Source of the DNA: Parvularculaceae bacterium
Lineage (GTDB): Bacteria > Pseudomonadota > Alphaproteobacteria > Caulobacterales > Parvularculaceae
Direction: 5' to 3'
Assembly (NCBI GenBank): GCA_013215175.1
Contig: JABSRH010000002.1
Span: forward strand, 1-56,569
Length of the DNA stretch: 56,569 nucleotides
Under the pieces are notes generated by a model that saw only the letters and a program-made list of their open reading frames with translations, did not search any database and had not been told where the DNA came from. Shown piece after piece: positions 7,865 to 24,880 of the stretch. The stretch's first letter is position 1. Each line of letters begins with the position of its first letter. A program made the position numbers and the translations under genes.

Positions 7865-8593
7865 ATGAATGTTCGTTTGTTCAAGGCAAGGGCTCTTTTG
7901 GGGTCGTCGGAAGGGAAGGAGGCCGAGGCCGAATTCCCTTTCGGGTTAGGTACTTCGGGGGTGCACGAGGTGGCGGAGGCGGCCTATGGCGACCACCCGT
8001 CTGCGCTGGGTTTTGTTCTCTCGGCGGCGCGTGAGGCAGGAGCGAAGAGCCTCCTTTGGATCACGCGCTATGGCGCTCGCCGTGAGCATGGGACGCTGAT
8101 CGAGCGGTGGGCAGCCAGTGCCTTGGGGAAGGCGCCGCCGGCCTGTTTCTTTGTGGAGCCGAGCAAGCCTGACCATGCGCTGTGGGTGGCGGAAGAGGCG
8201 ATCAAGTCTCGCGCCGTGTCATTGGTCCTTGCCGAGACCCCGTTGCCGAGTTTCACCGCTTCGCGACGGCTGAGCCTCGCCAGTGAGCAATGGGGCACGC
8301 CGGCCATCCTACTGCTGCCTCACAGCGCTAAGGGAACGAGCGCAGCGCAAGCCCGCTGGCGGGTGGCCGCCGCGCCTTCGGCACCGAACCTCTACGATCC
8401 GCAGGCCCCGGGGGAGCCTCTTTGGCAAGTCACCTTGGAGCGGTGCCGAGCAGCGCCGCATTTGGTGGGGCATACTTATCGTCTGGGTGGAAACCATGCG
8501 CCGTTATCTGGTGATCAAGTTGATCGATTGGCCCCTCACAAGGTGGCAACGGGCGCAAGCCCCTATCCTTTCCTCGCCCGACGAACAGGATAG
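7865..8593 (+). CDS. imuA: ImuA, SOS mutagenesis accessory protein
   Basis: ImuA is a RecA-like protein without a clear P-loop that helps ImuB and DnaE2 carry out error-prone translesion synthesis. Family-like stretches are GTSGVHEVAEAAYGDHPSAL and ALGFVLSAAREAGAKSLLWI near the start and FTASRRLSLASEQWGTPAIL later. The start is uncertain: the ATG at 7865 lies two bases after the LexA box, and a TTG at 7898 with an upstream AAGG would put the box entirely in the promoter. The annotated ATG gives 242 residues. The 3' end overlaps imuB by 98 bp, longer than usual, so a longer-than-typical C-terminus or a local frameshift are both possible. Confidence 0.82.
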   Translation: MNVRLFKARALLGSSEGKEAEAEFPFGLGTSGVHEVAEAAYGDHPSALGFVLSAAREAGAKSLLWITRYGARREHGTLIERWAASALGKAPPACFFVEPSKPDHALWVAEEAIKSRAVSLVLAETPLPSFTASRRLSLASEQWGTPAILLLPHSAKGTSAAQARWRVAAAPSAPNLYDPQAPGEPLWQVTLERCRAAPHLVGHTYRLGGNHAPLSGDQVDRLAPHKVATGASPYPFLARRTG

Positions 8594-10058: not shown

Positions 10059-13000
10059 CCAACGACAGTGACTATGCCGAGCTTGCGGTCACGACGAATT
10101 TCTCCTTTCTCTATGGTGCCTCGCACCCAGAGGAATTCGTCAAGATGGCCCAGGCTCTAGGGCTAACCGCCATCGGCGTCGCTGACCGGAACACGCTGGC
10201 CGGTGTTGTGCGCGCTCACGTGGCGGCCAAGGAATTGGGTATGCGCCTTCTCGTCGGCGCACGCCTGGTGCCTAGGGATGGTCCAGAGCTGCTTTGCTAT
10301 CCGAAGGACCGAGCTGCTTATGGCAGACTGTCGGCTCTGCTGTCGCAAGGCAAGATGGGTGATACGGCGAAGGGCGAGTGCCATATCACCCTTGCTGATA
10401 TTCATCGGTATAGTGAAGGGCAGGTCTTCGTCATTATGCCACCAACGGATCATGACGATGCGTTCGGTGCTCATCTAGAGACGTTCCGTACTTGGTGGCG
10501 CGGGCGCGTTTATCTTGCGACACACTATGCCTATCACGGTGCCAATCGCGAGCAGGTGAGCCGTCTTGCCTCTCTTAGTCAGCAGGCGAATATCCCTCTC
10601 GTTGCGACTAATGATGTGCTCTATCACGCGCCGAACCGGCGACCTCTGCAGGATGTGCTTACGTGTGTTCGTGAAGGCTGCACCGTCCATGAGGCTGGCT
10701 ATCACCTGGAGGCACATGCTGAGCGTCACCTCAAACCGGCTACGGAGGTTCGGCGTCTTTTCAAGGGATATGAGGATGCAGTGAGCCGGACAATGGATAT
10801 CGTTCGTGCGTGTACGTTTTCTCTTGATGAGCTTTCTTATTGCTACCCCAACGAGCCGGTGCCGGATGGAAGCCATCCCCAAGCGCACCTCGAGGACTTA
10901 GCCTGGAAGGGGGCCGATTGGCGGTACCCTTACGGTGTGCCTGACCACGTCACAGCTTTGTTAAAGAAAGAGCTATCGCTAATCGATGAGCTTGAAGTGG
11001 CGCCTTACTTTCTTACAGTGCATGACATCGTCGCCTGGGCACGCGAGCGGAAAATTTTGTGCCAGGGGCGCGGCTCTGCGGCCAATTCGGCCGTGTGTTT
11101 TTGTCTTGGGGTGACCTCTGTTGATCCGGCCACGAGCAATCTCTTGTTCGAGCGGTTCTTGTCGAAGGAGAGGAAAGAACCACCCGATATCGACGTTGAT
11201 TTCGAGCATGAGCGGCGTGAGGAAGTCATTCAGTATGTCTACGAACGATATGGCCGCCACCGTGCTGCACTCACCGCAACAGTCATTTCCTATCGCCCGC
11301 GTTCAGCGGTCCGCGACGTCTGTAAGGCATTAGGGGTGAGTCCTGACATTGCTTCGGTTTTGGCCGGTACGGTCTGGGGTAGCTTTGGTAGCGACGTCCA
11401 CGAGGAGCAGGTGAAAAAGAGTGGCCTTGATCCTCAGAACCCTTCCTTGCGGCGGGTCCTACAGCTGACCAGGCAGTTGATCGGCTTTCCTCGGCACTTG
11501 TCTCAGCATGTCGGAGGCTTTGTGTTGACCGAGGGGCCTTTGGTTGAGACCGTTCCGATTGGCAACGCGGCGATGCCCGACCGAACGTTTATTGAGTGGG
11601 ACAAGGACGATATCAACGCGCTGGGCATCATGAAGGTCGATGTGCTGGCGCTTGGTATGCTCACGTGTATCCGAAAAGCATTCGATTTACTCGCCGAGCA
11701 TAAGGGCATTCGGCACGACCTCGCTTCGATCCCTCCCGATGACAAAGCCACCTACGATATGCTCTGTCGAGGGGATAGCCTCGGCGTCTTCCAAGTCGAA
11801 AGCCGTGCACAGATGAATATGCTGCCCCGTCTTCGGCCACGGAAGTTCTATGACCTGGTCATCGAAGTGGCGATCGTTCGGCCTGGTCCCATTCAAGGCG
11901 ATATGGTGCATCCTTACTTGCGGCGTCGCCAGAAAATCGAGAGTGTCGATTATCCGAGCCCAGCGCCGGAGCATGGCCCCCCCGATGAGCTGGAGGCGAT
12001 CCTGAAGCGCACCTTGGGTGTACCGCTTTTTCAAGAGCAGGCCATGCAGATTTCCATTGATGCCGCCAAGTTCACACCAGAAGAGGCGAATGGTCTGCGG
12101 CGGGCCATGGCCACTTTCCGCCGTGTTGGGACTATCTCTAACTACCAAAGCATGATGGTGGATCGCATGGTAGCTCGTGGCTATGACGCGGATTTCGCCC
12201 AGCGCTGTTTTGATCAAGTGAAAGGGTTTGGTGAGTACGGATTTCCGGAAAGCCATGCGGCCAGTTTCGCGTTGTTGGTCTACGTCTCTTCCTGGCTAAA
12301 ATGCCATCATCCCGAGATTTTCTGCGCGGCGCTGTTGAACAGCCAGCCTATGGGATTTTATGCCCCTGCCCAGATAGTGCGGGACGCTGTCGAGCACGGT
12401 GTGCACGTGCTGCCACCTGATGTGAATGCTTCGCACTGGGATAATAGTCTTGAGCATCGCGAGGAGGGGGATCCATCGGTGCGGCTCGGCTTCCGTCAGG
12501 TGGACGGCCTGCAAGAGAATGAAATTGATCGCCTTACGGAGGAGCGGGGACTCGGTTATGAAGATGTTGATGCCCTTCGTCGGCGTGCGGGGCTTCACAA
12601 ACGAACCCTGGAACTATTGGCGAGTGGCGATGCTTTTGGCTCGCTGGCTCTATCACGCCGTCAGGCCCTTTGGGCTGTGAAAGGCAAGCCTGGCAGCAAG
12701 GCTCTCCCCCTTTTCGAGGCTGGCGATGTTCCTGATCAGGGAGCGGAGGAGGTTGTGAGCTTGCCAACCATGCCCACTTCCGAGGAAGTCCTGCAGGATT
12801 ATCAGACCACGCGCTTATCCGTGAAGGCGCATCCTTTGTCCTTTCTTCGCAGCCACTACGCTCGCAAGGGCTTGCTCAGTACAGCGAGCGCGACCTCAAG
12901 TGGTAAAGGCCGTTGGGTCAAGACGGCAGGCCTTGTTCTTGTGCGCCAGATGCCAGGTTCGGCGAAGGGCGTCGTCTTCATCACCATCGAGGACGAGACT

Positions 13001-13306
13001 GGGGTTGCTAACCTTGTGGTTTGGCAGAAGGTTTTCCAACGATATCGAGCGGTGGTGATGGGAGCACGGATTATTGAAGTTCGTGGCCTTGTACAGCGTG
13101 CCGATAACGTCACACACATTGTTGCGCAGAAGCTCTTTGATCGAACCGAAGATCTTCAGCGGTTATCCGAGGATAGTCTACGTGATCCTATGAAAAATGT
13201 TATCTCCCATGCTGACGAGGTGAAGCGGCCGGTGCCTGAACCCGCACCTCGCCATGGGCACCCTAGGAATGTTCGAACGATTCCAAAGAGTCGTGACTTT
13301 CACTGA
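10031..13306 (+). CDS. dnaE2: Error-prone DNA polymerase III alpha subunit DnaE2
   Basis: DnaE2 is the C-family polymerase that carries out SOS mutagenesis with ImuA and ImuB. The 1091-residue length is typical. The N-terminal PHP domain begins YAELAVTTNFSFLYGASHPE. The palm carries the catalytic carboxylates in PDIDVDF (D386, D388, D390) followed by EHERREEVIQYVYERYGR. Fingers and helix-hairpin-helix regions follow, and an OB-fold lies near VKTAGLVLVRQMPG. The C-terminus ends in the DnaE2-typical HPRNVRTIPKSRDFH. The ATG at 10031 overlaps imuB by 28 bp; a GTG at 10055 is a shorter option. Only 14 bp separate its stop from the convergent DUF1501 gene. Confidence 0.96.
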   Translation: MVHTRTVSVTNDSDYAELAVTTNFSFLYGASHPEEFVKMAQALGLTAIGVADRNTLAGVVRAHVAAKELGMRLLVGARLVPRDGPELLCYPKDRAAYGRLSALLSQGKMGDTAKGECHITLADIHRYSEGQVFVIMPPTDHDDAFGAHLETFRTWWRGRVYLATHYAYHGANREQVSRLASLSQQANIPLVATNDVLYHAPNRRPLQDVLTCVREGCTVHEAGYHLEAHAERHLKPATEVRRLFKGYEDAVSRTMDIVRACTFSLDELSYCYPNEPVPDGSHPQAHLEDLAWKGADWRYPYGVPDHVTALLKKELSLIDELEVAPYFLTVHDIVAWARERKILCQGRGSAANSAVCFCLGVTSVDPATSNLLFERFLSKERKEPPDIDVDFEHERREEVIQYVYERYGRHRAALTATVISYRPRSAVRDVCKALGVSPDIASVLAGTVWGSFGSDVHEEQVKKSGLDPQNPSLRRVLQLTRQLIGFPRHLSQHVGGFVLTEGPLVETVPIGNAAMPDRTFIEWDKDDINALGIMKVDVLALGMLTCIRKAFDLLAEHKGIRHDLASIPPDDKATYDMLCRGDSLGVFQVESRAQMNMLPRLRPRKFYDLVIEVAIVRPGPIQGDMVHPYLRRRQKIESVDYPSPAPEHGPPDELEAILKRTLGVPLFQEQAMQISIDAAKFTPEEANGLRRAMATFRRVGTISNYQSMMVDRMVARGYDADFAQRCFDQVKGFGEYGFPESHAASFALLVYVSSWLKCHHPEIFCAALLNSQPMGFYAPAQIVRDAVEHGVHVLPPDVNASHWDNSLEHREEGDPSVRLGFRQVDGLQENEIDRLTEERGLGYEDVDALRRRAGLHKRTLELLASGDAFGSLALSRRQALWAVKGKPGSKALPLFEAGDVPDQGAEEVVSLPTMPTSEEVLQDYQTTRLSVKAHPLSFLRSHYARKGLLSTASATSSGKGRWVKTAGLVLVRQMPGSAKGVVFITIEDETGVANLVVWQKVFQRYRAVVMGARIIEVRGLVQRADNVTHIVAQKLFDRTEDLQRLSEDSLRDPMKNVISHADEVKRPVPEPAPRHGHPRNVRTIPKSRDFH

Positions 13307-13320
13307 GTTCGATTGCAGAC

Positions 13321-14694
13321 TTAGAAGAGTTGCAGGCTCTGCAGATCAAAGCGACCCCGATTGGGGAAGATGGAATTCAGCTCGCTTTCACTCAATCCGA
13401 ACCAGCTGCCTAACGAATAAGCATACTGATCGATCGAGTGTTGCGGGATCAGTGCACCACGATCTCTATATTCAAGCTCGTGTCCTGAATCGAACGATGG
13501 AACCGAGCCATGGATACGACCGCCACGTACCGAACCACCCACAACAAGCTGGTGACCACCCCATCCGTGGTCGGTACCGGTTGCATTGGCTGTCAGGGTG
13601 CGGCCAAAATCGGACGCAGTGAACAACGTCACTTGATCGGCCAGCCCCGCCGACTCAATCGCATTGTAGAAGCTCGTCACCGCGTCAGATAGCTGACCAA
13701 GAAGGGCTGGCATGCGCGTCGCGTGATCATTGTGCGTATCGAAACCGCCCATGCCCACGAAGAAAATCTGACGGTTCACGTCGAGTGCGCTCCGCGCCGC
13801 GATGAGATCGGCAACGGTACCCAGTTGCGATGAGAGACGGTTGTCCTCCAGCTCGATTTGTTCTCCCAATGAAATACCGTCGAGCACCGTTGCAAGCATC
13901 TCCGTATCGTCGATGGCTTTTCTTTGTGTGCTAATCAAATCACGCATCATGGGATTCTGCAGATGCGCTGCGCTGTTGGCATAAAAGGCCCTCAAGCGAT
14001 CAGTCGCTTCGTCGCTACTATAAACCCGCCGGTCCGTTCCGTAGGCGCGCCTAATATTGTTGGATGATGATAGCTGCAATTGTCTTGTCTGGTTTCCTGA
14101 CAGGAAAACCGCCTGACCTGAGATAGAGATCGCGCTGTATGGGGACGATTTGTTGAAGGCATCTAGAACTTGGCCGCCCCAACCTTGCCCTGCACCCTCA
14201 ACTGAAAACGCTTGCCAGGTGGATTGTTGGTCATTGTGCGATTGCAAACGAGCAGGAAGCCGCGCCAATCCGTCTTCGATGTCGCGCCGGTTGGTTGGTT
14301 CGAGCAAAGGCCCGACGTTAGGGACGAAAGCCGCTGCTTGTCGGTTGAATAGAGAGTGGATGCCTGACATCTCTGGGGGCAGTGCCACCTGAGGACCGCT
14401 CAGCTGGCTAGCATTCAAGGGGGCAAGCGCGAGTAAGCTCTCGCGTGCCCGGGCGCTCGCATTGCCGCTCTCTTCAAACCGCTCGAGAATAGACTGTCTA
14501 GCTGTCGCCCAAGCATCGTACGATGACTGATCATGACCAATCAGAATGTCCTGGCTATCACAGCCGCCGTAGAGGAAGACACAGACCAGTGCTTTGTATC
14601 CGGAGCTGTCGGCTGCTAGACTTGCCACGGGTGCGAGACCGGCAGCGCCAAAGGTCATGGCGGAGCTCTTCAGGAAGCCGCGTCGAGAAAACAT
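13321..14694 (-). CDS. DUF1501 protein, Tat-type signal (copy A)
   Basis: The 457-residue protein begins MFSRRGFLK, a twin-arginine motif, then a hydrophobic stretch and ALA-type cleavage region, so it should be exported folded. The core matches DUF1501, a sulfatase/alkaline-phosphatase-like fold of unknown substrate: ALVCVFLYGGCDSQDIL near the start, FFVGMGGFDTHNDH, TLFTASDFGRTL and GTDHGWGGHQLVVGG later. The Asp and His residues of the last two motifs resemble metal ligands of that superfamily. It lies 14 nt after a DUF1800 gene, the family's usual partner. A paralogue is at 16554-17930, and the pair is probably co-transcribed with it. Confidence 0.88.
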   Translation of the reverse strand: MFSRRGFLKSSAMTFGAAGLAPVASLAADSSGYKALVCVFLYGGCDSQDILIGHDQSSYDAWATARQSILERFEESGNASARARESLLALAPLNASQLSGPQVALPPEMSGIHSLFNRQAAAFVPNVGPLLEPTNRRDIEDGLARLPARLQSHNDQQSTWQAFSVEGAGQGWGGQVLDAFNKSSPYSAISISGQAVFLSGNQTRQLQLSSSNNIRRAYGTDRRVYSSDEATDRLRAFYANSAAHLQNPMMRDLISTQRKAIDDTEMLATVLDGISLGEQIELEDNRLSSQLGTVADLIAARSALDVNRQIFFVGMGGFDTHNDHATRMPALLGQLSDAVTSFYNAIESAGLADQVTLFTASDFGRTLTANATGTDHGWGGHQLVVGGSVRGGRIHGSVPSFDSGHELEYRDRGALIPQHSIDQYAYSLGSWFGLSESELNSIFPNRGRFDLQSLQLF

Positions 14695-14708
14695 ATCTAA
14701 CTCCGTTC

Positions 14709-16439
14709 CTACCGCTGAACCATATATTCGGGTGATGTGACTGCCATCAGCAGTGCTAGTTCTACCCTCCGGCGCCGATCGCCATCTAAGTCGCCACCCG
14801 CTACAGCCACCGCATCGACAGCAGCTTCGATGGTTTGGATATTCTCCGTGGACATCAAGCCACCTGTCATGATCCGGTCGATTTCCGTGACCAGTGCCTG
14901 GGGGTCATCAGCAAGCGTCAGAAGCGCGGTGGTGTTCGTGAGGGCAACATTAGGAGCTGAATCGCTGAGTGGAGGGCCATCGATGAAATCCTCCATCGTA
15001 TTGATATAGCCCACCATCGAAGGCGTAGTCGCAATCTGGTATTCTGGGGTTACGAGGCCTTGTGCTGCACTCTCCGTTCCCGGACCAACGTACCCGGGAC
15101 GGTAAAAGTTGAAGACCGATGGAGAGACAAAGGCATTAATGCCGAACGCACGTCCATCCTCTAGCCGGTCGAGTGTCCATGCTCGGGGGATCTCACCGGA
15201 GCTCGTCACGGTTGCTTCAACGCGGAAGGTCCGAATGAGCTGCGCCAAGCGCAGAACAGGATTGCGGATTTTTCCGTAGTTGACGTCGGTCGGCTCTTCT
15301 CGAGCCTCTGGGTCCATTAGTATCGCTGCCGTGGTGGCCGCGAGATCGCACCGTGTTCCAGTGCCGACGGTCTCGCCTGATGCGAGGCGAAAGCTACCTG
15401 CCTCGAAAGCCTCAGCGACCCGTCCGACATAGGCTGGTGACGGATTCGACGTTACTAGTTTTTGGATAAGCTGTTTACTGATGAATGGAGCGACGTTGGG
15501 ATTGCCCAGCAAATGGTCCAGAGCTGCTTCAACGCTGACAATGGCATCGGTACCAAGATCGATTGTTGTGCCGAGAAACGATTTTGGCGCTTCTTCATGC
15601 TGTGCCAAAAAGCTCTCCATGGGCAGGTAGCGGTTGAAGTCGCTGACGCGGGGGTAGAAAAAGTCCGTGTCACCCCAACCCAGACCGGTAAACACCGCTG
15701 CCAGGCCCCGCACGTCATCGCCGGTATACGACTCCGTTCCTGTTGGTCGGCCTTGGGGGTCCAAATCCTCCAACCCAATGGTGAAGAGCTGCATCACTTC
15801 CCTGGCATAGTTCTCATCAGGAACAAAACCAGCTTCTTCGTCAGCGCGGGGATTACCCAAATGGGTAAGAAACAGACCCATTGCCGGGTTCAAAGAGATA
15901 TCGCGGATCAGTTGGCAATAGTTGCCGAGTGCTTGTTCCTGTAACAAATCGGCATACGTTGCGAAACTCAATCGTTGACCGCGCACCTGTGGATCTAGCA
16001 ATGACACCACAACGATTTGAGAAAGAGCGTAGGCCATGCGTTGACGGAGTTGGTCTTCTCCGTGAACTGCGCGTTCCCAGAATAGCCGTTGGAAAGTGTT
16101 GTCGCTGACCCAATTTGAAAGCGCCTCTTCTTCAATACGATCCCTATACGGTACATAAGGCATAGCGAGTTGCGCCTGAAACCAAGCATCGAAGCCGGCG
16201 TTCTTCAGTCCGTCCAAGTCTGTGGGCGATGCGCCAAACGTTGCTTGCTGAGCAATCCGAAACGCTTCTGCATCTGTAATTACGGCTGGCGGTGTGAATT
16301 GCGCACCGGGGCCGTTCGATGATCCGCTTCCAGATGCCGTCTCGGAATCCGGTTCCTCGTTAGGAAAACAAGCCGAAAGGGCGAGGATAGAGAGCCCCGC
16401 CATCATACTGCTACGAACAAGCCGAACATACCTGGTCAT
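14709..16439 (-). CDS. DUF1800 lipoprotein (copy A)
   Basis: The 576-residue protein has a lipobox LSAC (C24), so it should be lipid-anchored, and a short Ser/Gly-rich linker (about 26-46). DUF1800 motifs follow: EAFRIAQQATFGASPTDL, FWERAVHGEDQLRQRMAYAL, MGLFLTHLGNPRADE and NYAREVMQLFTIGLEDL. Its biochemical role is unknown; the family is nearly always encoded next to a DUF1501 gene, here downstream by 14 nt. The ATG at 16439 has GGAG six bases upstream, whereas a TTG at 16463 would put the ribosome site inside the gene. A 10-bp-stem hairpin lies directly upstream of that ribosome site. Confidence 0.88.
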   Translation of the reverse strand: MTRYVRLVRSSMMAGLSILALSACFPNEEPDSETASGSGSSNGPGAQFTPPAVITDAEAFRIAQQATFGASPTDLDGLKNAGFDAWFQAQLAMPYVPYRDRIEEEALSNWVSDNTFQRLFWERAVHGEDQLRQRMAYALSQIVVVSLLDPQVRGQRLSFATYADLLQEQALGNYCQLIRDISLNPAMGLFLTHLGNPRADEEAGFVPDENYAREVMQLFTIGLEDLDPQGRPTGTESYTGDDVRGLAAVFTGLGWGDTDFFYPRVSDFNRYLPMESFLAQHEEAPKSFLGTTIDLGTDAIVSVEAALDHLLGNPNVAPFISKQLIQKLVTSNPSPAYVGRVAEAFEAGSFRLASGETVGTGTRCDLAATTAAILMDPEAREEPTDVNYGKIRNPVLRLAQLIRTFRVEATVTSSGEIPRAWTLDRLEDGRAFGINAFVSPSVFNFYRPGYVGPGTESAAQGLVTPEYQIATTPSMVGYINTMEDFIDGPPLSDSAPNVALTNTTALLTLADDPQALVTEIDRIMTGGLMSTENIQTIEAAVDAVAVAGGDLDGDRRRRVELALLMAVTSPEYMVQR

Positions 16440-16452
16440 GCACTTCTCCAAG

Positions 16453-16482
16453 AAGGTCAGCAATCACCTGGCTGCTGACCTT
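16453..16482 (-). repeat. 10-bp inverted repeat (hairpin) just upstream of the DUF1800-A ribosome site
   Basis: The arms AAGGTCAGCA and TGCTGACCTT are perfect complements around a 10-nt loop. In the minus-strand transcript the 3' arm ends three bases before the GGAG ribosome site of DUF1800 copy A. No U-tract follows, so an intrinsic terminator is unlikely. It lies in the 114-nt space between the two paralogous gene pairs. A role in differential expression, or protein binding to DNA, is inference. Confidence 0.6.
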
Positions 16483-16553
16483 GTCAGGAAGATGGCAAGT
16501 TCATGCTCTTCCGAGGAACGATCTGTGGGCCCCGCAGACCTGTTCCTGGCTTG

Positions 16554-17930
16554 TTAAGTGAAGAGGCCGAGCGGTGTTGTGTCAAACCGATCTCGGTTGG
16601 TAAACACTTCGTTCAGTTCACTGTTCGAAAGTCCAAACCAGCTGCCCATTTCCGCGCCATATTGCTCAACAGCGATCTGAGGAATCATCGTGCCGCGTTT
16701 CCAGTGCTGGTCATTCCCCAGCTCGAAGCTCGGTACACTGCCAGCGATGCGTCCACCAGCCACCTGGTTGCCGATGACGAAGTGATGGCCACCCCAACCA
16801 TGGTCGGTACCTGTCGCGTTGCTGACAAGCGACCGACCGAAGTCACTGCCAGTGAAGGTCGTGACGAGGTCGGCGAGGCCAGCATTTTCGAGGGCTGTCT
16901 GGAATGACGTTACGGCTTCAGACAGCGTACGAAGCAGTTCAGGCATGGCGCTGACATGGTTCTTATGCGTGTCAAATCCGTCGAGGCGTGCGAAGAAAAT
17001 CTGACGCGAAACGCCGAGCTGAGAGCGTGAGGCGATGACGTTGGCGATCATCGCCAACTGCTCAGAGAGGTAGTTTCTCGGAACGACGACACTGTCGCCC
17101 AGGGTTTGCCCACTCAAGACCGTCGAAAAACGCTCCGTGTCTGCAATAGCTCGACCCTGAGCGTTGATGACGTCACGCATCAGAACATTCGACGTGTTGT
17201 TGCTCGGGTTGCTGAGATAGTCTGTCAGCATAGAGGATAGTTCTGCGGAGCCCCACAGTTCGTCTTCAGTACCGAAGGCTCGCTTGATGTCACCATCAGG
17301 CTTCAGGGCGACCTGTCTCGTTTGGCGTCCTTGCAAGAACACATTCTCGCCGCGGAGCGAAACCGCCGTGTAAGGAGAGCTTTGGGTGAAAGCATCAAGC
17401 ATGGCGCCGCCCCAACCGTTGCTGGCGCCTTCACCGGAAAATGCTGTCCAGGTTGACGCCTGGTCGTTGTGCGAAAAGAGCCTGTCGGGCAGGAGCGCTG
17501 TTTCCGCGTCGATCATCGACCGTGAGGTCGGCTCTAGCAGCGGACCGACATTGGGAACAATAGCGAGGCGCCCTGTTTCAAACAGGTTGTGCATCCCGGC
17601 CATCTCTGGGGGCATGGCGAACTCGCGGCCACCAAAGTCCCCTGAATTGCTGGGGTTCAGCTTCAACAGGTTGTCACGGGACCGACTTCCCCGTTCCCCG
17701 AACTCATCGATCTGGGCGATGATCGAACTCCGGGCCGATGCCCAGTTATCGTATGAAGGCTGATCATACCCAATCAACATGTCGTGCGCGTCAGCGCCGC
17801 CGTTGAGGAAGATGAACACGAGGGCCTTGTACCCAGACTGGTCAGCCGCTCGCGCAGCAAGAGGTGCGAGTCCAGTGGCGCCAAGACCCAGAGCGGAAGT
17901 TTGTAAGAAACGACGACGTGATAACAACAT
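16554..17930 (-). CDS. DUF1501 protein, Tat-type signal (copy B)
   Basis: This 458-residue paralogue of the gene at 13321-14694 begins MLLSRRRFLQ, a twin-arginine motif, then GLGATGLAPLAARAA as export signal. It keeps the DUF1501 landmarks ALVFIFLNGGADAHDML, FFARLDGFDTHKNH, TTFTGSDFGRSL and GTDHGWGGHHFVIGN. The ATG at 17930 is preferred because AGGTGG lies upstream; a GTG at 17942 directly abuts the stop of DUF1800-B and would leave no room for a ribosome site. The gene is tightly coupled to DUF1800-B. Similarity to copy A runs end to end, indicating gene-pair duplication, but the copies differ at many positions and so are not recent. Confidence 0.88.
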   Translation of the reverse strand: MLLSRRRFLQTSALGLGATGLAPLAARAADQSGYKALVFIFLNGGADAHDMLIGYDQPSYDNWASARSSIIAQIDEFGERGSRSRDNLLKLNPSNSGDFGGREFAMPPEMAGMHNLFETGRLAIVPNVGPLLEPTSRSMIDAETALLPDRLFSHNDQASTWTAFSGEGASNGWGGAMLDAFTQSSPYTAVSLRGENVFLQGRQTRQVALKPDGDIKRAFGTEDELWGSAELSSMLTDYLSNPSNNTSNVLMRDVINAQGRAIADTERFSTVLSGQTLGDSVVVPRNYLSEQLAMIANVIASRSQLGVSRQIFFARLDGFDTHKNHVSAMPELLRTLSEAVTSFQTALENAGLADLVTTFTGSDFGRSLVSNATGTDHGWGGHHFVIGNQVAGGRIAGSVPSFELGNDQHWKRGTMIPQIAVEQYGAEMGSWFGLSNSELNEVFTNRDRFDTTPLGLFT

Positions 17931-17942
17931 ATGAGCCCCCAC

Positions 17943-19787
17943 CTACTGCTGAACCATGTATTCTGGTGATGTGACCGTCATGAGGGCCGCAAGGGTCCAC
18001 CGACGAGCATTTGTCTTTTCCGGCTGCTTCTGAGTAACCGGCACGGCTTCAACAGCTTCTATGATCCGTGCACGGTTCTCTTCGCTGAACTGACCGCCCA
18101 TCAGATCGGCGATCACTTGATCCACCAAGCCGGGTATGTCTTCAGCAGCGAGTTCGTAATTGTACGAAACGTCAAAGTCCGCGACCAAATCTTCGCCATC
18201 CTCGATCTCGAAGATCTCGATGAACGACCTCATCACGTTGATGTAGGCTACCATCGCTGGCGCACTGGCAATCTGCAGTTCAGGCGTTTTCAGTCCGAGT
18301 TCTGCGGACTCCGTACCTGGCGCAACATAGCCAGGCCGGAAGTCGTTGAACACTGATGGAGCGGCAAAGGCGTTCTGTTCCAGCAGTCTCTCGGAATCGA
18401 GATTGTCGAGGGACCGGCCTGATGGCAAAACCCCAGAAGTCGTCACGTCCTTCTCATTCCGATAGGCACGAATGAAATGTGCAACACGGAGTAAAGGTGA
18501 GCGGATCTTACCAAAATTCTCGTCCGTGGTTTCACCGCGGGCTTCGGGGTCCGTTAAGATGGCTGCTGCTGTGGCTGCCAAGTCGCAACGTTGACCCGTA
18601 CCCACGAAATCGCCATTGGGCAGCTCATATTGGCCGGCTGAGAACGCCTCAGCAACTCGCCGAACATAGTCAGGCGACGGATTTGACGTCACCAGTTTTT
18701 GGATAAGTTGCTTCGAAATGAACGGCGCAACGTTTGGATGCTCAAGCAGGTAGTCCAAGGCAGCGTTGATGCTATCCACGGCATCGTTGCCGACGTTGAC
18801 CGTGGTCTGCATAAACGTCTTGGCCCGATCTTCATGCTGAGCGCGGAAGCTCTCCATGGGAAGGTACCGGTTGTTATCGGTGACACGCGGACGGTCGAAG
18901 TCCGTGTCCGCCCAACTTAGTCCTGTGAAGACTTCGGCCAGACCCTCAATGTCATCTTGCGAATAAGTTGCATGACCCAAGCCACGACCTGATTCGTCGA
19001 GTTCTTCCAAACCGATGGTGAACAGCTGAAGAATCTCGCGAGCGTAGTTTTCGTCAGGGACGAACCCGTTCTGTACGTCTTCTTTTCTGTTCCCAAGGTG
19101 TGTCAGGTACATCCCCATCACAGGGTTGAAAGAGATGTCGCGGATGAGGCTGCAGTAGTTGCCTAGGGCATGGTCCTGGAGGAGGTCCGCATAGATACCA
19201 AATTCGCTGATATGCTCTGCAATTTGAGGATCTCGGAGCGATGCGACGACGATCTGCGAGAGCGCATACGTCATTCTCTGACGCAGCTGATCCTCTCCAT
19301 GGATCGCACGCTCCCAGAATAGCGTCTGCAGGATGTCTTCCCGAATGCGGACCTCCGCATTCCGGAGATCCTCAATCCTTGGCGTATACGGCACGTGAGG
19401 CTCTTCGAGTTGATCTTGAATCCACGCTGAAAGGTTGAGCTCCTTAAGTTCAGCCAAATCCTCTGCATTCGCGCCGAAGGTGGCCTGCTGTGAGAAGCGA
19501 AAGGCTTCTTTGTCCGTCAGCTCGGCTTCCATCGCCACCGGAGGAGGCGGAGGAGGCGGAGGAGGAGGCGGCGGGGGCGGTGGTGCTGGTGGCGCAGCCG
19601 GTGGTGGCGGCGGCGGCGGCGGAGGAGGTGGAGGTGGAGGTGGAGGAGGGGCCGGAGGCGCGATCGGAGCAACAGGCGCCGGCTCCTCGACAACGGGCGG
19701 CTCCTCCGGCGCTTCGGCCACAGGTTTACACGCTGAAATGGCTGCTACGGCGGTGGTCATCGCCAGGGCCGTCCAACTCAGTTTCAT
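17943..19787 (-). CDS. DUF1800 lipoprotein with polyproline linker (copy B)
   Basis: The 614-residue lipoprotein has a lipobox ISAC (C20) and then an Ala/Pro/Glu spacer leading into two uninterrupted proline runs of 17 and 15 residues split by AAPPA. The DUF1800 domain follows: EAFRFSQQATFGANAEDL, FWERAIHGEDQLRQRMTYAL, MGMYLTHLGNRKEDV, NYAREILQLFTIGLEEL. The linker should form an extended rod holding the domain away from the membrane anchor and would need EF-P for translation. The ATG at 19787 is chosen because GGGAG lies six bases upstream; GTG 19808 and ATG 19793 fit worse. It is first of four minus-strand genes forming two DUF1800/DUF1501 pairs. Confidence 0.88.
   Translation of the reverse strand: MKLSWTALAMTTAVAAISACKPVAEAPEEPPVVEEPAPVAPIAPPAPPPPPPPPPPPPPPPPPAAPPAPPPPPPPPPPPPPPPVAMEAELTDKEAFRFSQQATFGANAEDLAELKELNLSAWIQDQLEEPHVPYTPRIEDLRNAEVRIREDILQTLFWERAIHGEDQLRQRMTYALSQIVVASLRDPQIAEHISEFGIYADLLQDHALGNYCSLIRDISFNPVMGMYLTHLGNRKEDVQNGFVPDENYAREILQLFTIGLEELDESGRGLGHATYSQDDIEGLAEVFTGLSWADTDFDRPRVTDNNRYLPMESFRAQHEDRAKTFMQTTVNVGNDAVDSINAALDYLLEHPNVAPFISKQLIQKLVTSNPSPDYVRRVAEAFSAGQYELPNGDFVGTGQRCDLAATAAAILTDPEARGETTDENFGKIRSPLLRVAHFIRAYRNEKDVTTSGVLPSGRSLDNLDSERLLEQNAFAAPSVFNDFRPGYVAPGTESAELGLKTPELQIASAPAMVAYINVMRSFIEIFEIEDGEDLVADFDVSYNYELAAEDIPGLVDQVIADLMGGQFSEENRARIIEAVEAVPVTQKQPEKTNARRWTLAALMTVTSPEYMVQQ
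19539..19658 (-). repeat. GC-rich proline-codon repeat tract
   Basis: About 120 bp of nearly pure CCN codons on the minus strand encode P15 (19539-19583) and P17 (19599-19649) with short Ala/Pro breaks. The third codon positions vary, so it is a coding low-complexity tract, not a perfect microsatellite. It may still vary in length by slippage. The opposite strand reads as poly-glycine and should not be called a gene. Confidence 0.9.
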
Positions 19788-20176: not shown

Positions 20177-20977
20177 TTAACCGTGTTCGGTCATATGACG
20201 TTGGCCGGGTGCAGGAGGCGCTTCTGGTGGCCCGGCGAAGCATTGAGCTTTATGCATCCAATCTGTCGCAACATCGCCTTTCACAACAAGATCGACATCA
20301 GCGATGTTCCGCGTTTGTGTGACGACCTGGCAGAACGCTGTAGCCGAGCCCTCGATGCGTTCATCCGGGTGCTCAGGATTGAAGGTCCAGATCGCTCCTG
20401 ACGGAGCGGTTAGACGCACATGGGGTTTGATAGATGGCTTCTGTTCGCCGCGAACCTGATAGGTCCAACCGAATGTTCGGACACCGAGTTCTGCAATCGG
20501 CCGAATGTGATCACCATCGATGCGTGCGCGACCTGCTAGATCATAAAGAGCTTGTCCGTGGGCCCATGTCTCCATCAGCCGTGCGCTGATTGAGGATTGC
20601 GCACTCATCGGTGGACCCGCCCAGGGAAGCCGTCGTTCAGGATCAATCGACCGGAAGACACCAGCCGTCCTTTCGGCAGATGCCTGCCACGTTGAGATCA
20701 GTTCACTGCCGGTTAGGTGTTGGAAGGCTTCGTCCTCATACCCTCGCATGCCACCCGCGGCGACTTTCGGCAGAGCCTCCATCAACATCGCTTGGAAGGC
20801 TTCGGTGCTTTCGGTCGACAGCAGTGCTGCTTCGTTCCAACAGTGGAGGTGACGGATAATCTGTGTGCCCGTCCATGATTTGAACAGCGTTGGTTGGTCG
20901 AGGTCCAGGTTTGCGTCCAGTAGCAGTTTCGCCAACCCGGTGGTCTCTTTCAAGAAATCGTCAGCCTCGTGGATCAT
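20177..20977 (-). CDS. TIGR03084-like metal-binding protein (DinB/MDMPI fold)
   Basis: The 266-residue protein has the N-terminal four-helix domain of DinB / mycothiol-dependent maleylpyruvate isomerase proteins. Likely metal ligands lie in IIRHLHCWNEAALL and in METWAHGQALYDLAGRA, the E/H-G-Q signature of the family. A C-terminal domain with SGAIWTFNPEHPDERIEGSA resembles an SCP2-like part. TIGR03084-type proteins recur in acyl-CoA and terpene-utilisation clusters, which fits its place as last gene of this operon, overlapping the preceding gene by 4 bp (ATGA). Alphaproteobacteria do not make mycothiol, so a glutathione-dependent or thiol-independent role is more likely. Substrate unknown. Confidence 0.72.
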   Translation of the reverse strand: MIHEADDFLKETTGLAKLLLDANLDLDQPTLFKSWTGTQIIRHLHCWNEAALLSTESTEAFQAMLMEALPKVAAGGMRGYEDEAFQHLTGSELISTWQASAERTAGVFRSIDPERRLPWAGPPMSAQSSISARLMETWAHGQALYDLAGRARIDGDHIRPIAELGVRTFGWTYQVRGEQKPSIKPHVRLTAPSGAIWTFNPEHPDERIEGSATAFCQVVTQTRNIADVDLVVKGDVATDWMHKAQCFAGPPEAPPAPGQRHMTEHG

Positions 20978-22101
20978 GCGCCAATCGCCTCGCTCAATTG
21001 CTCAAAGGCCTCGGCGAATTCCTGTTTGAAGCGCTGGACAATCTGACCAGACGTTTCTTTTTCATTCATCAAACCAACAGCCTGGCCCACCCAGTAGGTG
21101 GCGAGCTCGCGCGCACCTTCGTGACCTCCGTCAGCAAGTTTGTCGAGCTTCCGCAGAGCCGGTTCGGACACTAGGGTTTGTAGCGGCATGGGTAGAGCTT
21201 GCGGGCCTTCCGTCTCCCAAGCTTCAGTCCAAGGACTTTTCAGCTGGCGCGATGGCTTACCTGTGCGCGAACGAGAGCGTACTGTGTCCGCAGAGCTCGC
21301 TTCGATCATCTTGTCCTTAACCGACTCGCTGGTTTCAGCCTCGGCTGAGGTGAGCCAAACCGACCCGCACCAAGCGCCGGCCGCGCCCATGGCCATGAGC
21401 CCCGCCATTTGGCTGCCTGTGGCAATGCCGCCAGCGGCTAGTACGGGGGTGCCTTGCGCTACACGGACGACTTCAGGGACGAGCACCAAGGTCGAGATCT
21501 CGCCACAATGGCCGCCTGCCTCGCCACCCGCTGCGATGAGGACATCGACACCGGCTTCAACCTGCTTTGCAGCGTGTGCCGCCGAACCGACGAGTGCGCC
21601 GACTTTGACGCCGTTAGCGCGGGCCTTGTCGATCATCATTTGAGGGGGCACACCGAGAGCATTCACCAGAAGTTTGACGGGGTGTTCAAAGGCAGTGTCG
21701 AGCGCCGTTGTTGCTCCATCGGGCGTTAGGTTGCTCAAGAAATGGGTATGGTCGAGCCGGCTCTCGTCCAAATCTTCTGTCGACACACCGCCATCTTCTA
21801 AGAGCTTTGCGGCAAAGTCTTTATGCTCTGCTGGGATCATTCCGAGGAGCGCCTGCTCGTCGACTGGGCCAGCTTGCAATACACTCTTGGTAGGGACGAT
21901 CAAGTCAAGCCCGTAGGGTTTGCCGTCGACGTGGTCGTCAATCCACGTAAGCTCTTCCTTCAGTTGTTCCGGTGTATGATTAACGGCGCCAAAGACACCC
22001 ATGCCGCCGGCTTTCGAAACGGCCGCAACCACATCTCGGCAATGACTGAAGGCCAGTAGAGGGAATTCGATCCCAAACATGTCACAAATAGGGGACTTCA
22101 T
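20974..22101 (-). CDS. Nitronate monooxygenase / 2-nitropropane dioxygenase family protein
   Basis: This 375-residue FMN-dependent TIM-barrel protein starts MKSPICDMFGIEFPLLAFSH, as the family does. It carries AAGGEAGGHCGE, the segment with the conserved catalytic histidine, and VLAAGGIATGSQMAGLMAMGAAG for flavin phosphate binding. Members inside fatty-acid clusters often do not act on nitronates and may oxidise or reduce unsaturated acyl intermediates; that is inference here. Start and stop both overlap neighbouring genes by 4 bp, so it is translated together with the carboxylase alpha subunit and the TIGR03084-like protein. Confidence 0.85.
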   Translation of the reverse strand: MKSPICDMFGIEFPLLAFSHCRDVVAAVSKAGGMGVFGAVNHTPEQLKEELTWIDDHVDGKPYGLDLIVPTKSVLQAGPVDEQALLGMIPAEHKDFAAKLLEDGGVSTEDLDESRLDHTHFLSNLTPDGATTALDTAFEHPVKLLVNALGVPPQMMIDKARANGVKVGALVGSAAHAAKQVEAGVDVLIAAGGEAGGHCGEISTLVLVPEVVRVAQGTPVLAAGGIATGSQMAGLMAMGAAGAWCGSVWLTSAEAETSESVKDKMIEASSADTVRSRSRTGKPSRQLKSPWTEAWETEGPQALPMPLQTLVSEPALRKLDKLADGGHEGARELATYWVGQAVGLMNEKETSGQIVQRFKQEFAEAFEQLSEAIGA

Positions 22102-24083
22102 TCGTTGACCTCCGTCTGATTACTGATGATAATCATCAGATCGTCTGTGCTCACTTGCGATCCTGTTTCGACGCGTACTTCCGTTATGGTGCCGTCGACC
22201 ATCGCCTTAATTTCATGTTGCATTTTCATGGCTTCGAGGAGTGCCAGACGCTGCCCGGCCGTAACGCTCTGGCCCACGTTGACGAAAACGTCTGTTACGA
22301 GACCGTGCATGGGCGCCGTGATGTCACCTTCGCTGCCGGCTCCATCGTTGCTGCCCGACAAGGCTAGAAGGTTTGTAAGCTGAAATTCACCGTCGGTTGT
22401 CTGAAGGTCAATCATGGCGTCTTCATGCCTGAATTGAACAGCCACCCGCTTGCCATCCACTGTCAGAATACCAAAGTGAGCAGACAGTTCGGTCACCGTA
22501 ACCTTGATGTCTGCGTCTCCGACTTGAGCTGCGTAGCCAGAGCCGCTGCTTGAGACCCGAACGTTCGTTTCACCTTCGTCGCTATTGTAGCGGTAAGGCG
22601 TGTAGAGATGGTCGGCACTGCTCCAGTTCAGAAGTTCGCTCGGTACTTCAATTTCGTTTTGCCTGCGTACGAGTGCTTTCATGTGTTGCAGCACCGCCGC
22701 GATAGCGTATGTCTGGGCCGTGATAGAGGGCTGCGTAAACGCCGCCATGCGATCAAGGTCATCGGTCCGCATTTCTCCCTGAGCGAAGCGTTTGGCTCCA
22801 ATCATGTCGATGAGAAATGTTCGGTTCGTGTCGATGCCGAATAGCGTTGTCTTTTGAAGGGCCTGTATGAGCTTACGGCAAGCTTCCTCGCGAGAACGAC
22901 CGTGAACAATGACTTTCGCGACCATCGGGTCATAGAACGGCGTTACTGCGCCACCCGTTTCGATACCTGCGTCAGTCCGACAATTGTCAGCAGGCTGCCA
23001 TAGCTGAATTGGTCCCGTCGAGGGCAAAAAGCCTTCGCTTGGATTCTCTGCATAAAGACGGGCTTCGATGGCGTGCCCGTTCAGACTGATATCTTCTTGG
23101 TTTAATCCGAGGGCTTCATCGCTGGCTACCCGAAGCTGAAGCTCAACAAGATCAAGGCCTGTGATCTCTTCCGTTACGGGATGCTCGACCTGTAGTCTTG
23201 TATTCATTTCAAGGAAGTAGAATGATCCGTCGTCAGCGAGTAGAAACTCAACGGTCCCCGCGCCACTATAATCCACCGCCTTCGCGGCGGCGACTGCAGC
23301 AGCGCCCATCCGTCCACGCAGCTCAGCATTGACAGCTGGTGAGGGTGCTTCTTCGACAATCTTTTGATGTCGGCGCTGCATCGAGCAATCACGCTCACCA
23401 AGATGGATGACGTTACCGTGGTTGTCCCCAAAGACTTGCACCTCAACATGCCGAGCATGCTCGACGGCTTTCTCGAGGATCAGATCCGACGAACCGAAGG
23501 CTGATAGAGCCTCCTGGCGAGCGTCAGCCAAGGCGGCGACTAGGTCGTCAGGCGACCGAACGATCCGCATGCCACGGCCACCGCCGCCGGCCGCGGCTTT
23601 CACCATCACCGGGAACCCGGCCGCGTTTGCGGCATCGATGAAGAGTTGGTCGGCCTGGTCTGCGCCTTGATAGCCTGGGATGCAAGGCACGTCCGCTTCA
23701 ACCATCGACCGCTTGGCTGCCGCCTTGTCACCCATTAGTTCGATAGCAGATGGTGGAGGACCGACGAACACCAGGCCCGCATCGGCGACGGCCTGAGCGA
23801 AACCGGCATTTTCCGAAAGAAAACCGTAGCCTGGGTGGATAGCATCAGCACCTGTCGCTCGGGCTGCCTCCAGAATGGCGGCCTGGTTCAAATAGCTCTG
23901 TGCGGATGGTGCTGGCCCGATTGTCACGCATTCATCGGCAAACTGAGCGTGAGGTGTGTTGGCGTCCGCTTCTGATGCAACCGCAACGGTCCGCAGCCCC
24001 ATGCGACGGGCTGTTTTCATGACTCTTAGGGCGATTTCGCCGCGATTGGCGACGAGGAGAGTGTTGATCACAGCCATGCTCAT
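22098..24083 (-). CDS. Acyl-CoA carboxylase alpha subunit (biotin carboxylase plus biotinyl domain), AtuF/LiuD-type
   Basis: The 661-residue subunit loads CO2 onto biotin using ATP. The biotin carboxylase part starts INTLLVANRGEIALRVMKTA, has the ATP-grasp glycine loop KAAAGGGGRGM and FLEMNTRLQVEHPVTEEITG. A linker domain follows, and a C-terminal biotinyl domain has EAMKM with the biotinylated lysine near K620. Size matches geranyl-CoA and 3-methylcrotonyl-CoA carboxylases. The ATG at 24083 forms an ATGA overlap with the hydratase gene; the TTG at 24092 is rejected. Its beta partner lies two genes upstream. The substrate is not fixed by this subunit. Confidence 0.92.
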   Translation of the reverse strand: MSMAVINTLLVANRGEIALRVMKTARRMGLRTVAVASEADANTPHAQFADECVTIGPAPSAQSYLNQAAILEAARATGADAIHPGYGFLSENAGFAQAVADAGLVFVGPPPSAIELMGDKAAAKRSMVEADVPCIPGYQGADQADQLFIDAANAAGFPVMVKAAAGGGGRGMRIVRSPDDLVAALADARQEALSAFGSSDLILEKAVEHARHVEVQVFGDNHGNVIHLGERDCSMQRRHQKIVEEAPSPAVNAELRGRMGAAAVAAAKAVDYSGAGTVEFLLADDGSFYFLEMNTRLQVEHPVTEEITGLDLVELQLRVASDEALGLNQEDISLNGHAIEARLYAENPSEGFLPSTGPIQLWQPADNCRTDAGIETGGAVTPFYDPMVAKVIVHGRSREEACRKLIQALQKTTLFGIDTNRTFLIDMIGAKRFAQGEMRTDDLDRMAAFTQPSITAQTYAIAAVLQHMKALVRRQNEIEVPSELLNWSSADHLYTPYRYNSDEGETNVRVSSSGSGYAAQVGDADIKVTVTELSAHFGILTVDGKRVAVQFRHEDAMIDLQTTDGEFQLTNLLALSGSNDGAGSEGDITAPMHGLVTDVFVNVGQSVTAGQRLALLEAMKMQHEIKAMVDGTITEVRVETGSQVSTDDLMIIISNQTEVNE

Positions 24084-24880
24084 TCTGCCCAATTTGGTTT
24101 CCGTTTACCGAGGAAGCTCGCGATACCTTCGGCTCCTTCCTCAGACAGCAAACAATCTGTGAAGGCTGTTGCTGCATCGTCTTGCAACGAAGTGGGCGCT
24201 GCTATGGCCGCCTGGAGAGCGATCCGCTTTGTCGCTGCCAGTGCCTCGGGGGCGCATTGCAGAACCTGGCTCTTGATGGTTGCCAGCCAAGTCTCGAGAT
24301 CTGAGCCGTCCGCTGCCATATGATCTGCCAGGCCGATTTGCATCGCTTCCTCTGCACCGAACGTTGCGGCCGTCAGCATAAGGCGTTTTGCTGTAGAGAG
24401 CCCTAGGCGTGCAACGAGATAAGGCGCGATTTGTGCTGGTGGAATACCCAGTTTGACCTCGGTGAGAGCGAACTTCGCCGACTGCGTCACCGCGATCAGG
24501 TCAGCACAGCAAGCCATGCCCAAGCCGCCGGCCATGGCGGGGCCATCGATGACAGCAACAACCACTTGAGGTTGTTGCTGTATTTGTGCAAACAGCCTGC
24601 CACCGGCTTGGCTCATCTGATGGATAGCTTGCTGGTCGCGCCCCATGATGAAGCGGCCCATGCCTTTTAGGTCGCCTCCGGAGCAAAAAACGCCATTGGC
24701 GCCACGTAAGGTTATGCCGCGTAGGGAGCGATCACCTGTGGCCTGCTCAAGCACGGACGAAAGGGCGGCTGACATGTCTTCGGAGAGAGCGTTGCGGCGC
24801 TCGGCATCTTTCATGGTCAGGGTCAGCCAGCGGCCTTCAGCTTCGGCAATCAAAAGCTCGGAGGGGGATTTGATTGTCAT
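24080..24880 (-). CDS. Enoyl-CoA hydratase, AtuE/LiuC-type
   Basis: The 266-residue crotonase-fold protein has oxyanion-hole segments ANGVFCSGGDLKGMGRF and AMAGGLGMACCADL. The catalytic region ALTEVKLGIPPAQIAPYLVARLG resembles the (S/T)EV(K/R)xGxxPAxIxPYV form of AtuE and LiuC, which hydrate the carboxylated branched intermediates of terpene or leucine breakdown, rather than ordinary fatty-acid hydratases. The ATG at 24880 follows the stop of the beta-subunit gene by one base and uses its GAGGG ribosome site; a longer frame up to 24919 would overlap that gene. It sits between the two carboxylase genes, as in atu and liu operons. Confidence 0.86.
   Translation of the reverse strand: MTIKSPSELLIAEAEGRWLTLTMKDAERRNALSEDMSAALSSVLEQATGDRSLRGITLRGANGVFCSGGDLKGMGRFIMGRDQQAIHQMSQAGGRLFAQIQQQPQVVVAVIDGPAMAGGLGMACCADLIAVTQSAKFALTEVKLGIPPAQIAPYLVARLGLSTAKRLMLTAATFGAEEAMQIGLADHMAADGSDLETWLATIKSQVLQCAPEALAATKRIALQAAIAAPTSLQDDAATAFTDCLLSEEGAEGIASFLGKRKPNWAE

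Follow-up and report, generated by a model that had tools for sequence, protein, structure and literature searches.

Two old paralogous DUF1800-DUF1501 operons in a Parvularculaceae bacterium, each predicted to encode an envelope lipoprotein and a Tat-exported metallo-hydrolase

The window analysed in this study (the whole 56,569-nucleotide stretch of DNA), from what is probably a Parvularcula species, carries, at 13321-19787 on the minus strand, two two-gene operons, named A and B, each consisting of a DUF1800 lipoprotein gene (PF08811) followed by a DUF1501 gene whose product has an RR signal (PF07394). We propose that these are two old paralogous operons, each encoding an envelope lipoprotein (DUF1800) and a Tat-exported metallo-hydrolase (DUF1501), a reading to which we assign a probability of about 0.5. 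The features concerned are the following.

13321..14694, minus strand: DUF1501-A, 457 aa, RR (Tat-type) signal, predicted alkaline-phosphatase-superfamily fold (PF07394, AlphaFold2, VIA-align)
14709..16439, minus strand: DUF1800-A lipoprotein, 576 aa from ATG, short Ser/Gly linker, lipobox LSAC (PF08811)
16453..16482, minus strand: 11-bp stem-loop without a clear T-run, located between the two pairs and directly upstream of where DUF1800-A begins
16554..17942, minus strand: DUF1501-B, 462 aa from GTG (ATG at 17930), RR (Tat-type) signal, invariant Asp/His/Ser kept (PF07394)
17943..19787, minus strand: DUF1800-B lipoprotein, from ATG, long polyproline linker with 17 Pro in a row, lipobox ISAC (PF08811)
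20177..24092, minus strand: upstream flank, outside the module, with an MDMPI_N protein and an NMO-family protein (both by Pfam) and a third protein, presumably biotin-carboxylase-like

That the four minus-strand genes form two DUF1800/DUF1501 pairs, as the preliminary description had it, is confirmed by the gene calls, the Pfam matches, the lipoboxes and the RR motifs. PF07394 is matched by DUF1501-A with an E-value of 1.7e-36 (127 bits, model positions 2-342 of 390) and by DUF1501-B with 1.3e-29 (104 bits, positions 2-341), for a curated cut-off of 27 bits. PF08811 is matched over the whole model (2-419 of 419) by DUF1800-A (1.4e-74, 252 bits, scored on the frame that starts at an in-frame TTG 24 bases upstream of the ATG) and by DUF1800-B (6.7e-83, 280 bits), the curated cut-off being 26.1 bits. 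Pfam lists both families as of unknown function, and an NCBIfam search with the four proteins assigned no family. The genome to which the window belongs (G000; 89.65% complete, 322 contigs) shows two DUF1800 and two DUF1501 genes, which are those of the window.

Direct reading of the DUF1800 proteins revealed a bacterial lipoprotein signal with a lipobox in both, LSAC in A and ISAC in B, from which lipidation is predicted. The lipobox cysteine is present in 113 of 125 aligned DUF1800 rows, and the +2 residue that follows it is Phe/Lys, not Asp. Both DUF1501 proteins carry the RR motif, a pattern found in 110 of 119 DUF1501 sequences, and its two arginines are invariant in 59/59 aligned sequences, of which the Pfam TAT_signal model matches only 3. 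With this motif, and with TatC found in the genome, both copies are predicted Tat substrates. Between lipobox and domain the two DUF1800 proteins differ markedly: the linker of A has 36 residues (14% Pro), that of B 76 residues (56% Pro). The earlier remark that a short linker stands against a polyproline one thus holds, and the same contrast is found again in the congeneric genome G009. The idea attached to it, that the copies act at different reach or on different partners, is weak, since linker length and make-up vary widely throughout the family.

The fold of DUF1501 is predicted to be that of the alkaline-phosphatase superfamily, from an AlphaFold2 model of copy A (pLDDT 87.8). VIA-align gave a Z-score of 17.6 to a nucleotide pyrophosphatase/phosphodiesterase (rmsd 3.2 over 240 aligned residues), and 490 of 998 Foldseek candidates reached Z 8 or more. 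The top 50 listed (Z 15.3-17.6) are all NPP/ENPP-type enzymes, including autotaxin and snake-venom PDE, PafA/SPAP alkaline phosphatases or choline sulfatases. Foldseek itself yielded an E-value of 3.7e-5 to choline sulfatase, with low TM-scores (0.24-0.38 by query among the 50 matches listed), so the superfamily placement rests on the structural aligner. D46, S152, H153, D319, H321, D375 and H376, as well as D155, are invariant in all 59 aligned DUF1501 sequences (57 rows out of 72 usable plus the two window copies), which span several proteobacterial classes and Acidobacteria. By a presumed match to known ligands, the first seven are candidate residues of a bimetal site and its nucleophile. 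The likeness to NPP, PafA/SPAP and choline sulfatase lies in predicted fold and invariant Asp/His/Ser, whereas identity to the superfamily members in the top 50 is only 9-14%. This remoteness could mean that DUF1501 has lost catalysis and is a binding protein or chaperone, and the accessible part of the literature naming the DUF1501 and DUF1800 families reports no activity for either; to our knowledge none has been demonstrated experimentally for DUF1501. However, a scaffold would hardly need Asp, His and Ser residues held invariant over such a taxonomic range, and both window copies retain them; we therefore consider loss of catalysis unlikely. For DUF1800-A, the AlphaFold2 model (pLDDT 88.7) has no match among solved structures (best Foldseek E-value 1.0; best VIA Z 3.0 among Foldseek candidates), which is no proof of a new fold. 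Two extra cysteines are present in the DUF1800 clade. One match below E 0.001 was obtained in a viral library, to an uncultured phage protein itself annotated DUF1800. A PDB sequence search with both families retrieved no solved structure at a useful E-value.

The association of the two genes extends far beyond the window. A profile search with a 24-sequence alignment found at least 585 relatives; at the best 80 named loci, 78 of 81 DUF1800 frames are followed by DUF1501 on the same strand and two more are cut by contig ends (some of the counted open frames overlap, and one further DUF1800 frame is ambiguous). Likewise, 67 relatives' loci and the window together hold 70 frames for DUF1800 and 68 for DUF1501, and the two that lack a partner lie at contig ends. 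Where it could be tested, the order of the two genes is almost universal. Within the order, 178 of 298 sampled genomes have a DUF1800 match, 175 of them above the family cut-off. Distances among DUF1800 and among DUF1501 proteins correlate (r 0.81 over 119 pairs), a value reached by none of 1000 within-genome partner swaps, which supports the pair as the unit of inheritance. Exchanging the partners of A and B changes the correlation from 0.808 to 0.807, i.e. the two copies are interchangeable in this test. Such co-inheritance is expected from linkage alone and is therefore not evidence that DUF1800 and DUF1501 touch.

The two window pairs are old paralogous two-gene operons. DUF1501-A and DUF1501-B align end to end with 250/457 identical residues (55%), and the DUF1800 domains with 312/529 (59%), the N-terminal linkers being excluded. 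The claim that both members are alike end to end hence applies to DUF1501 in full and, in DUF1800, to the domain but not to the N-terminal linkers. At fourfold sites identity between A and B is 0.33 (139 sites) and 0.27 (171 sites), chance being 0.26 and 0.25; they are close to saturated, which makes the duplication an old one. Recent gene conversion was considered and rejected: 35-36% of third positions are identical, and nucleotide identity stays at or below 0.72 in every stretch of 40 codons. In a concatenated tree of 25 of the 43 long-type pairs (relatives and window), A and B fall within one five-pair clade (support 100/99) with pairs from two congeneric genomes, and are therefore close paralogues, not members of unrelated clades. 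This clade is nested in a nine-pair clade (100/100) in which every member comes from the genus itself.

Two probable counterparts of A and B lie about 327 kb apart in G009. One of them, L092, is the positional counterpart of B: it has B's flank, whose three genes are syntenic (67, 80 and 58% identity, order and strand kept), and it shares B's run of 17 Pro. The other, L089, has the short linker of A. An additional alpha/beta hydrolase gene lies between flank and pair in G009, and the corresponding gap in the window holds no detectable trace of it. We propose that A and B parted no later than roughly the time at which this genome and G009 diverged. Alternatively, B, beside the MDMPI/NMO genes, was copied head to tail in place after the split from G009, the likeness of A to L089 being due to chance or convergence. 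The adjacency of the pairs would fit this, and so would the identities, as B is nearer to A (56/55%) than to L092 (50/48%). The best concatenated tree separates A from B, yet trees with A and B as sisters are only 5.1 log units worse and are not rejected (AU p 0.20); in this tree L092 branches off first in the five-pair clade rather than with B, and the internal order is weakly supported. On the other side, the DUF1800 trees group A with L089 (95) and B with L092 (92), although they use overlapping data and are not independent; among quartet sites 31 favour A,L089|B,L092, against 26 that favour A,B|rest and 16 the third arrangement, a small excess in the same direction, and the linker types are shared along the same lines. 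A late duplication in place thus seems possible, with the odds against it. Two independent gains by horizontal transfer that ended up next to each other are much less probable still, indeed very unlikely. DUF1800 copy number varies from 0 to 8 across the genus, and transfer together with chitin synthase genes has been published for other lineages (PMC5122149), but the two nested clades consist of this genus throughout, and the GC content of the four genes (55-57%) lies inside the 54-63% of the window, though below the 59-63% of its first 9 kb. Under the preferred reading of two old paralogous operons, what stands of the notion that the pair was duplicated as a unit is that its members are inherited together and fall in one clade; its in-place tandem origin is less certain, the G009 copies lying far apart and a sister grouping of A and B not being rejected by the AU test.

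Of 147 fetched loci, 12 have VirB-type IV secretion genes no more than 2 kb away from the pair; each of these carries from two to six of VirB4/6/8/9/10/11, except L063 with one (Pfam on representatives). On a FastTree tree this neighbour label is clustered, and well-supported branches force at least five changes. Across 61 genomes, 7 VirB4 matches score above 900 bits, and 6 of these are no more than 6 kb from a long-type DUF1800 gene; the genome of the window has type II secretion genes (gspC, D, E, F, G and K) as a T2SS cluster. These data could suggest that the pair serves envelope secretion machines as cargo or accessory, at a T4SS or T2SS exit, and is not an enzyme module in its own right; DUF1800 would then be the surface anchor. 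However, 135 of the 147 loci show no VirB genes in the DNA examined, which reached up to 6 kb with flanks of uncontrolled length, and several of the 12 are close kin (L065/L067/L072; L151/L157). No VirB4 match was found in the genome of the window (at 89.65% completeness), and we have dropped the idea that its pairs work with a T4SS. A general accessory role appears rather improbable.

For the two old paralogous operons, we infer the catalysis and substrate of DUF1501, its contact with DUF1800, the surface position and the export route as follows. DUF1800 would be a lipoprotein borne by a flexible linker, and the outer membrane is its most probable location. DUF1501, exported folded by Tat, would be a metal-dependent hydrolase or transferase of phosphate or sulfate esters. 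The most probable task of DUF1800 is to hold, mature or present this enzyme, either in the periplasm or on the cell surface, and the type II secretion system may provide its way over the outer membrane. The 'secretion pair' and 'cell-surface complex' of the preliminary description stand at this same level. By now, the A and B copies probably have different partners or substrates. A bolder and more doubtful generalisation is that DUF1800-DUF1501 constitutes a widespread surface metallo-hydrolase system, in which a mostly helical lipoprotein carries a Tat-exported enzyme of the alkaline-phosphatase superfamily, repeatedly recruited beside VirB4/6/8/9/10/11 T4SS genes in several alphaproteobacterial lineages and beside TonB receptors, and duplicated in Parvularcula into anchors of different reach.

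The doubling of the pair, although real, is a fairly ordinary finding. Agrobacterium vitis has already been reported to carry a tandem of two DUF1501-DUF1800 pairs, in a paper describing such operons next to bacterial chitin synthase (chs) genes in other lineages (PMC5122149). These share with the window the two families in one operon and the Tat signal on DUF1501. As presented there, the chs-adjacent pair is nearer to gammaproteobacterial than to alphaproteobacterial homologues and hence transferred, whereas the window pairs are close paralogues with no neighbour identified as chitin synthase; the accessible portion of that paper gives no DUF1501 fold. Like the DUF1800 proteins of the window, Caulobacter ElpS, considered here together with TonB receptor and T2SS genes, is an alphaproteobacterial lipoprotein; its secretion is T2SS-dependent, and it may serve as a working model for export (PMC2996285). 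The portion of that report available to us describes no functional domain beyond the lipoprotein signal and offers no ElpS-DUF1800 homology in support of a phosphate-starvation link by analogy, which we rejected.

The predicted fold, the candidate catalytic residues and the linked secretion and receptor genes make the pair assayable, and two diverged pairs in one cell provide a natural test of partner specificity. The most useful leads are the phosphatase/sulfatase-type predicted shape of DUF1501 and the repeated position of the unit near secretion genes elsewhere. Concerning expression signals, promoter and terminator scans stayed close to the shuffle level (3 vs 2.8; 6 vs 5.7). The 124-nt stretch that holds the stem-loop between the pairs has a folding z-score of -1.92, with 9 of 200 shuffles folding as well or better.

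The layout of four minus-strand genes, which the preliminary description had read as two DUF1800/DUF1501 pairs (here A and B), is borne out by coordinates, strand and Pfam families (PF08811 and PF07394), with matches far over the cut-off for all four proteins.

Features of the pair region
17943-19787, minus strand: DUF1800-B, first in transcription order
16554-17942, minus strand: DUF1501-B, second in transcription order
16453-16482: 11-bp stem-loop between the pairs, immediately upstream of the DUF1800-A start, with no clear T-run
14709-16439, minus strand: DUF1800-A, third in transcription order
13321-14694, minus strand: DUF1501-A, fourth in transcription order
8283-13306, plus strand: IMS-family and DnaE-type polymerase genes (Pfam), on one flank of the pairs
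Other flank of the pairs: genes for an MDMPI_N and an NMO protein (Pfam)

DUF1501-A and DUF1501-B are 55% identical over their full length, and the two DUF1800 proteins 59% identical across 529 residues. The 114-base gap between the pairs contains hairpins; the folded stretch holding the 11-bp stem-loop has a z of -1.92. We take the flanking polymerase genes to be imuB and dnaE2, and the third gene of the other flank presumably encodes a biotin-carboxylase-like protein. The DnaE-type protein of the window shares 69% identity with its counterpart in G003 versus 52% with that in G009, both genomes of the same genus.

DUF1800 is present in 42 of the 61 sampled genomes of the genus, family and order (own genome counted). 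In an order-wide sample, 178 of 298 genomes gave a match, 175 of them over the cut-off. Within the genus (G000-G009), matches per genome range from none in the near-complete G001 and G005 to eight in G007, a large fragmented assembly with 6% contamination. A DUF1501 frame is found at the locus for 68 of 70 DUF1800 frames in the window and 67 loci of relatives, the other two lying at contig ends. For 78 of the 81 DUF1800 frames at the 80 named loci, a same-strand DUF1501 was scored as coming next; of the remaining three, two are truncated at contig ends and one is ambiguous. Across 119 long-subfamily pairs (A and B are of this type; a few contigs are counted twice), the DUF1800 and DUF1501 distances correlate with r = 0.81, against a mean of 0.00 and a maximum of 0.15 for random partners. 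Swapping partners within the seven multi-pair genomes gave a mean of 0.72 and a maximum of 0.80, none of 1000 swaps reaching the observed value. The pair is therefore a unit of inheritance. Exchanging the partners of A and B lowers r only from 0.808 to 0.807. Such co-inheritance follows from gene linkage and is no proof of contact between DUF1800 and DUF1501.

In a tree built from 25 selected pairs, A and B fall within one five-pair clade, together with both close pairs of G009 (L089 and L092) and one pair of G002 (100/99, concatenated tree), and not in unrelated clades. This clade and the co-inheritance make duplication as a unit followed by divergence, as proposed previously, the best reading. 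The in-place tandem step of that proposal is not settled by AU tests, which reject no grouping (A with B, p 0.20; A with L089, 0.46; B with L092, 0.37). Agreement between A and B at fourfold sites is barely over chance (0.33 vs 0.26 and 0.27 vs 0.25), and their identity never exceeds 0.72 in 40-codon windows. We read A and B as two lineages that separated at about the time of the divergence from G009, or earlier. In this reading, with the two G009 pairs lying about 327 kb apart, either a tandem was dispersed there or the copies were brought together in the own genome. G009 was picked for carrying both pair types, and the nearest overall relative may be another, the DnaE-type neighbour being closer to G003.

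Flank synteny and the linkers (the N-terminal stretch after the DUF1800 lipobox) favour L089 as the counterpart of A and L092 as that of B. Three genes flanking B keep their order and strand beside L092, with one extra gene in G009; the linker has 36 residues in A and 33 in L089, and a run of 17 Pro is common to B and L092. In the DUF1800 trees, which use overlapping data, A joins L089 (95) and B joins L092 (92). Against this pairing, B is closer in sequence to A than to L092, and polyproline runs can recur independently, since runs of at least 8 occur in 11 of the 119 pairs. The DUF1501 tree joins L089 to the G002 pair (92) and does not settle the positions of A and B; in the concatenated tree L092 branches off first and B second, leaving A together with L089 and the G002 pair, at low support (80/70, 84/88). 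The suggestion that linker length reflects function, strictly read, is spoken against by its variability, from 23 to 113 residues in 63 rows and longer in 5 (68 of 119 rows to which the length pattern was applicable).

Two head-to-tail pairs within a few kb of each other occur at just one of the DUF1800 places listed for the 61 genomes, namely in the window; assemblies as fragmented as that of G007 are only partly assessable. G004 has two convergent pairs, of different subfamilies. No second head-to-tail locus was found among the 80 named loci (DNA of at most 10 kb on each side, many shorter), where the sole double, L154, has two divergent pairs. Two DUF1501-DUF1800 pairs in tandem are described for Agrobacterium vitis in PMC5122149. 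Given this published case and the window as the only one sampled, the tandem arrangement is uncommon in these samples and already known.

The doubled pair is real and, as a phenomenon, fairly ordinary; what is gained beyond it is a predicted enzyme superfamily for DUF1501 and the recurrent gene neighbourhood of the pair. DUF1501 was without a known biochemical function as of 2015 according to PMC4452313, and the accessible portions of that paper and of PMC5122149, PMC6653060, PMC4960237, PMC3597751, PMC6329079 and PMC6946804 report none for DUF1501 or DUF1800. PMC2996285 describes ElpS, a Caulobacter lipoprotein whose secretion depends on a type II system. The AlphaFold2 model of DUF1501-A (59 sequences, pLDDT 87.8) retrieved sulfatases, phosphoethanolamine transferases and phosphatases with Foldseek; the E-values were modest (3.7e-5 for the best hit) and the TM-scores low. 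With a structural aligner it matched Xanthomonas NPP (Z 17.6, rmsd 3.2, 240 residues), and all 50 entries among the matches listed belong to the alkaline-phosphatase superfamily. R4, R5, D46, S152, H153, D155, D319, H321, D375 and H376 are invariant in 59 of 59 sequences (57 chosen from 72 usable named rows, plus both window copies); these residues would provide metal ligands and nucleophile.

The DUF1800-A model (pLDDT 88.7) is mostly helical, with a PDENYARE motif, and neither Foldseek nor the structural aligner found a solved-structure match for it. Foldseek listed BFVD A0A6J5M749, an annotated DUF1800 protein in an uncultured Caudovirales phage record (E 6.3e-22). Two extra cysteines, C219 and C408 (621-residue frame of copy B; genes 17943-19787 and 14709-16439), co-occur in 7 of 125 DUF1800 sequences, and neither is seen in any other. 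These seven make up a seven-pair Parvularcula-genus clade including the window pairs, and the cysteines stand in place of the usual Arg (115/125) and Gly (118/125). A putative C219-C408 disulfide suggests itself for this clade.

Of the 147 loci fetched, which comprise 67 from relatives (both subfamilies) and 80 named ones, with some contigs represented twice, 12 have VirB-type genes no more than 2 kb from a pair. These 12 come from several alphaproteobacterial lineages: L063, L065, L067, L069, L072, L102, L121, L130, L149, L151, L157 and L172. Pfam identified one representative gene each of VirB4, 6, 8, 9, 10 and 11. Per locus, between one (L063) and six (L149) of these six types are seen, and in five loci (L065, L067, L069, L072 and L102) VirB11 stands immediately upstream of the pair in the same orientation. 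On a 125-row FastTree tree, the VirB label takes 7 changes; shuffled labels take 11.6, and none of 500 shuffles gets down to 7 (flank lengths varied, and the tree came with a long-branch warning). Because well-supported branches force at least five changes, this linkage arose or was lost several times. Seven VirB4 matches in the 61 genomes exceed 900 bits. Six of them have a long-type DUF1800 gene at most 6 kb away, and the seventh, in G054, is on another contig; none of the lower-scoring matches was found beside a long-type DUF1800 gene, and several are on other contigs. Literature combining DUF1501 or DUF1800 with type IV secretion came down to a paper on Dickeya genomics and one on T6SS, whose mentions of these families, in the portions available, deal with other subjects than such a link. 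No VirB4 match was found in the own genome (assembly 89.65% complete). In five Marinicaulis-group loci (L071, L074, L081 and L114 on the same contig, and L108), a TonB-dependent receptor gene follows the pair at a distance of 26-116 bases. The own genome has TatC, and its gspC, D, E, F, G and K adjoin a TonB receptor gene.
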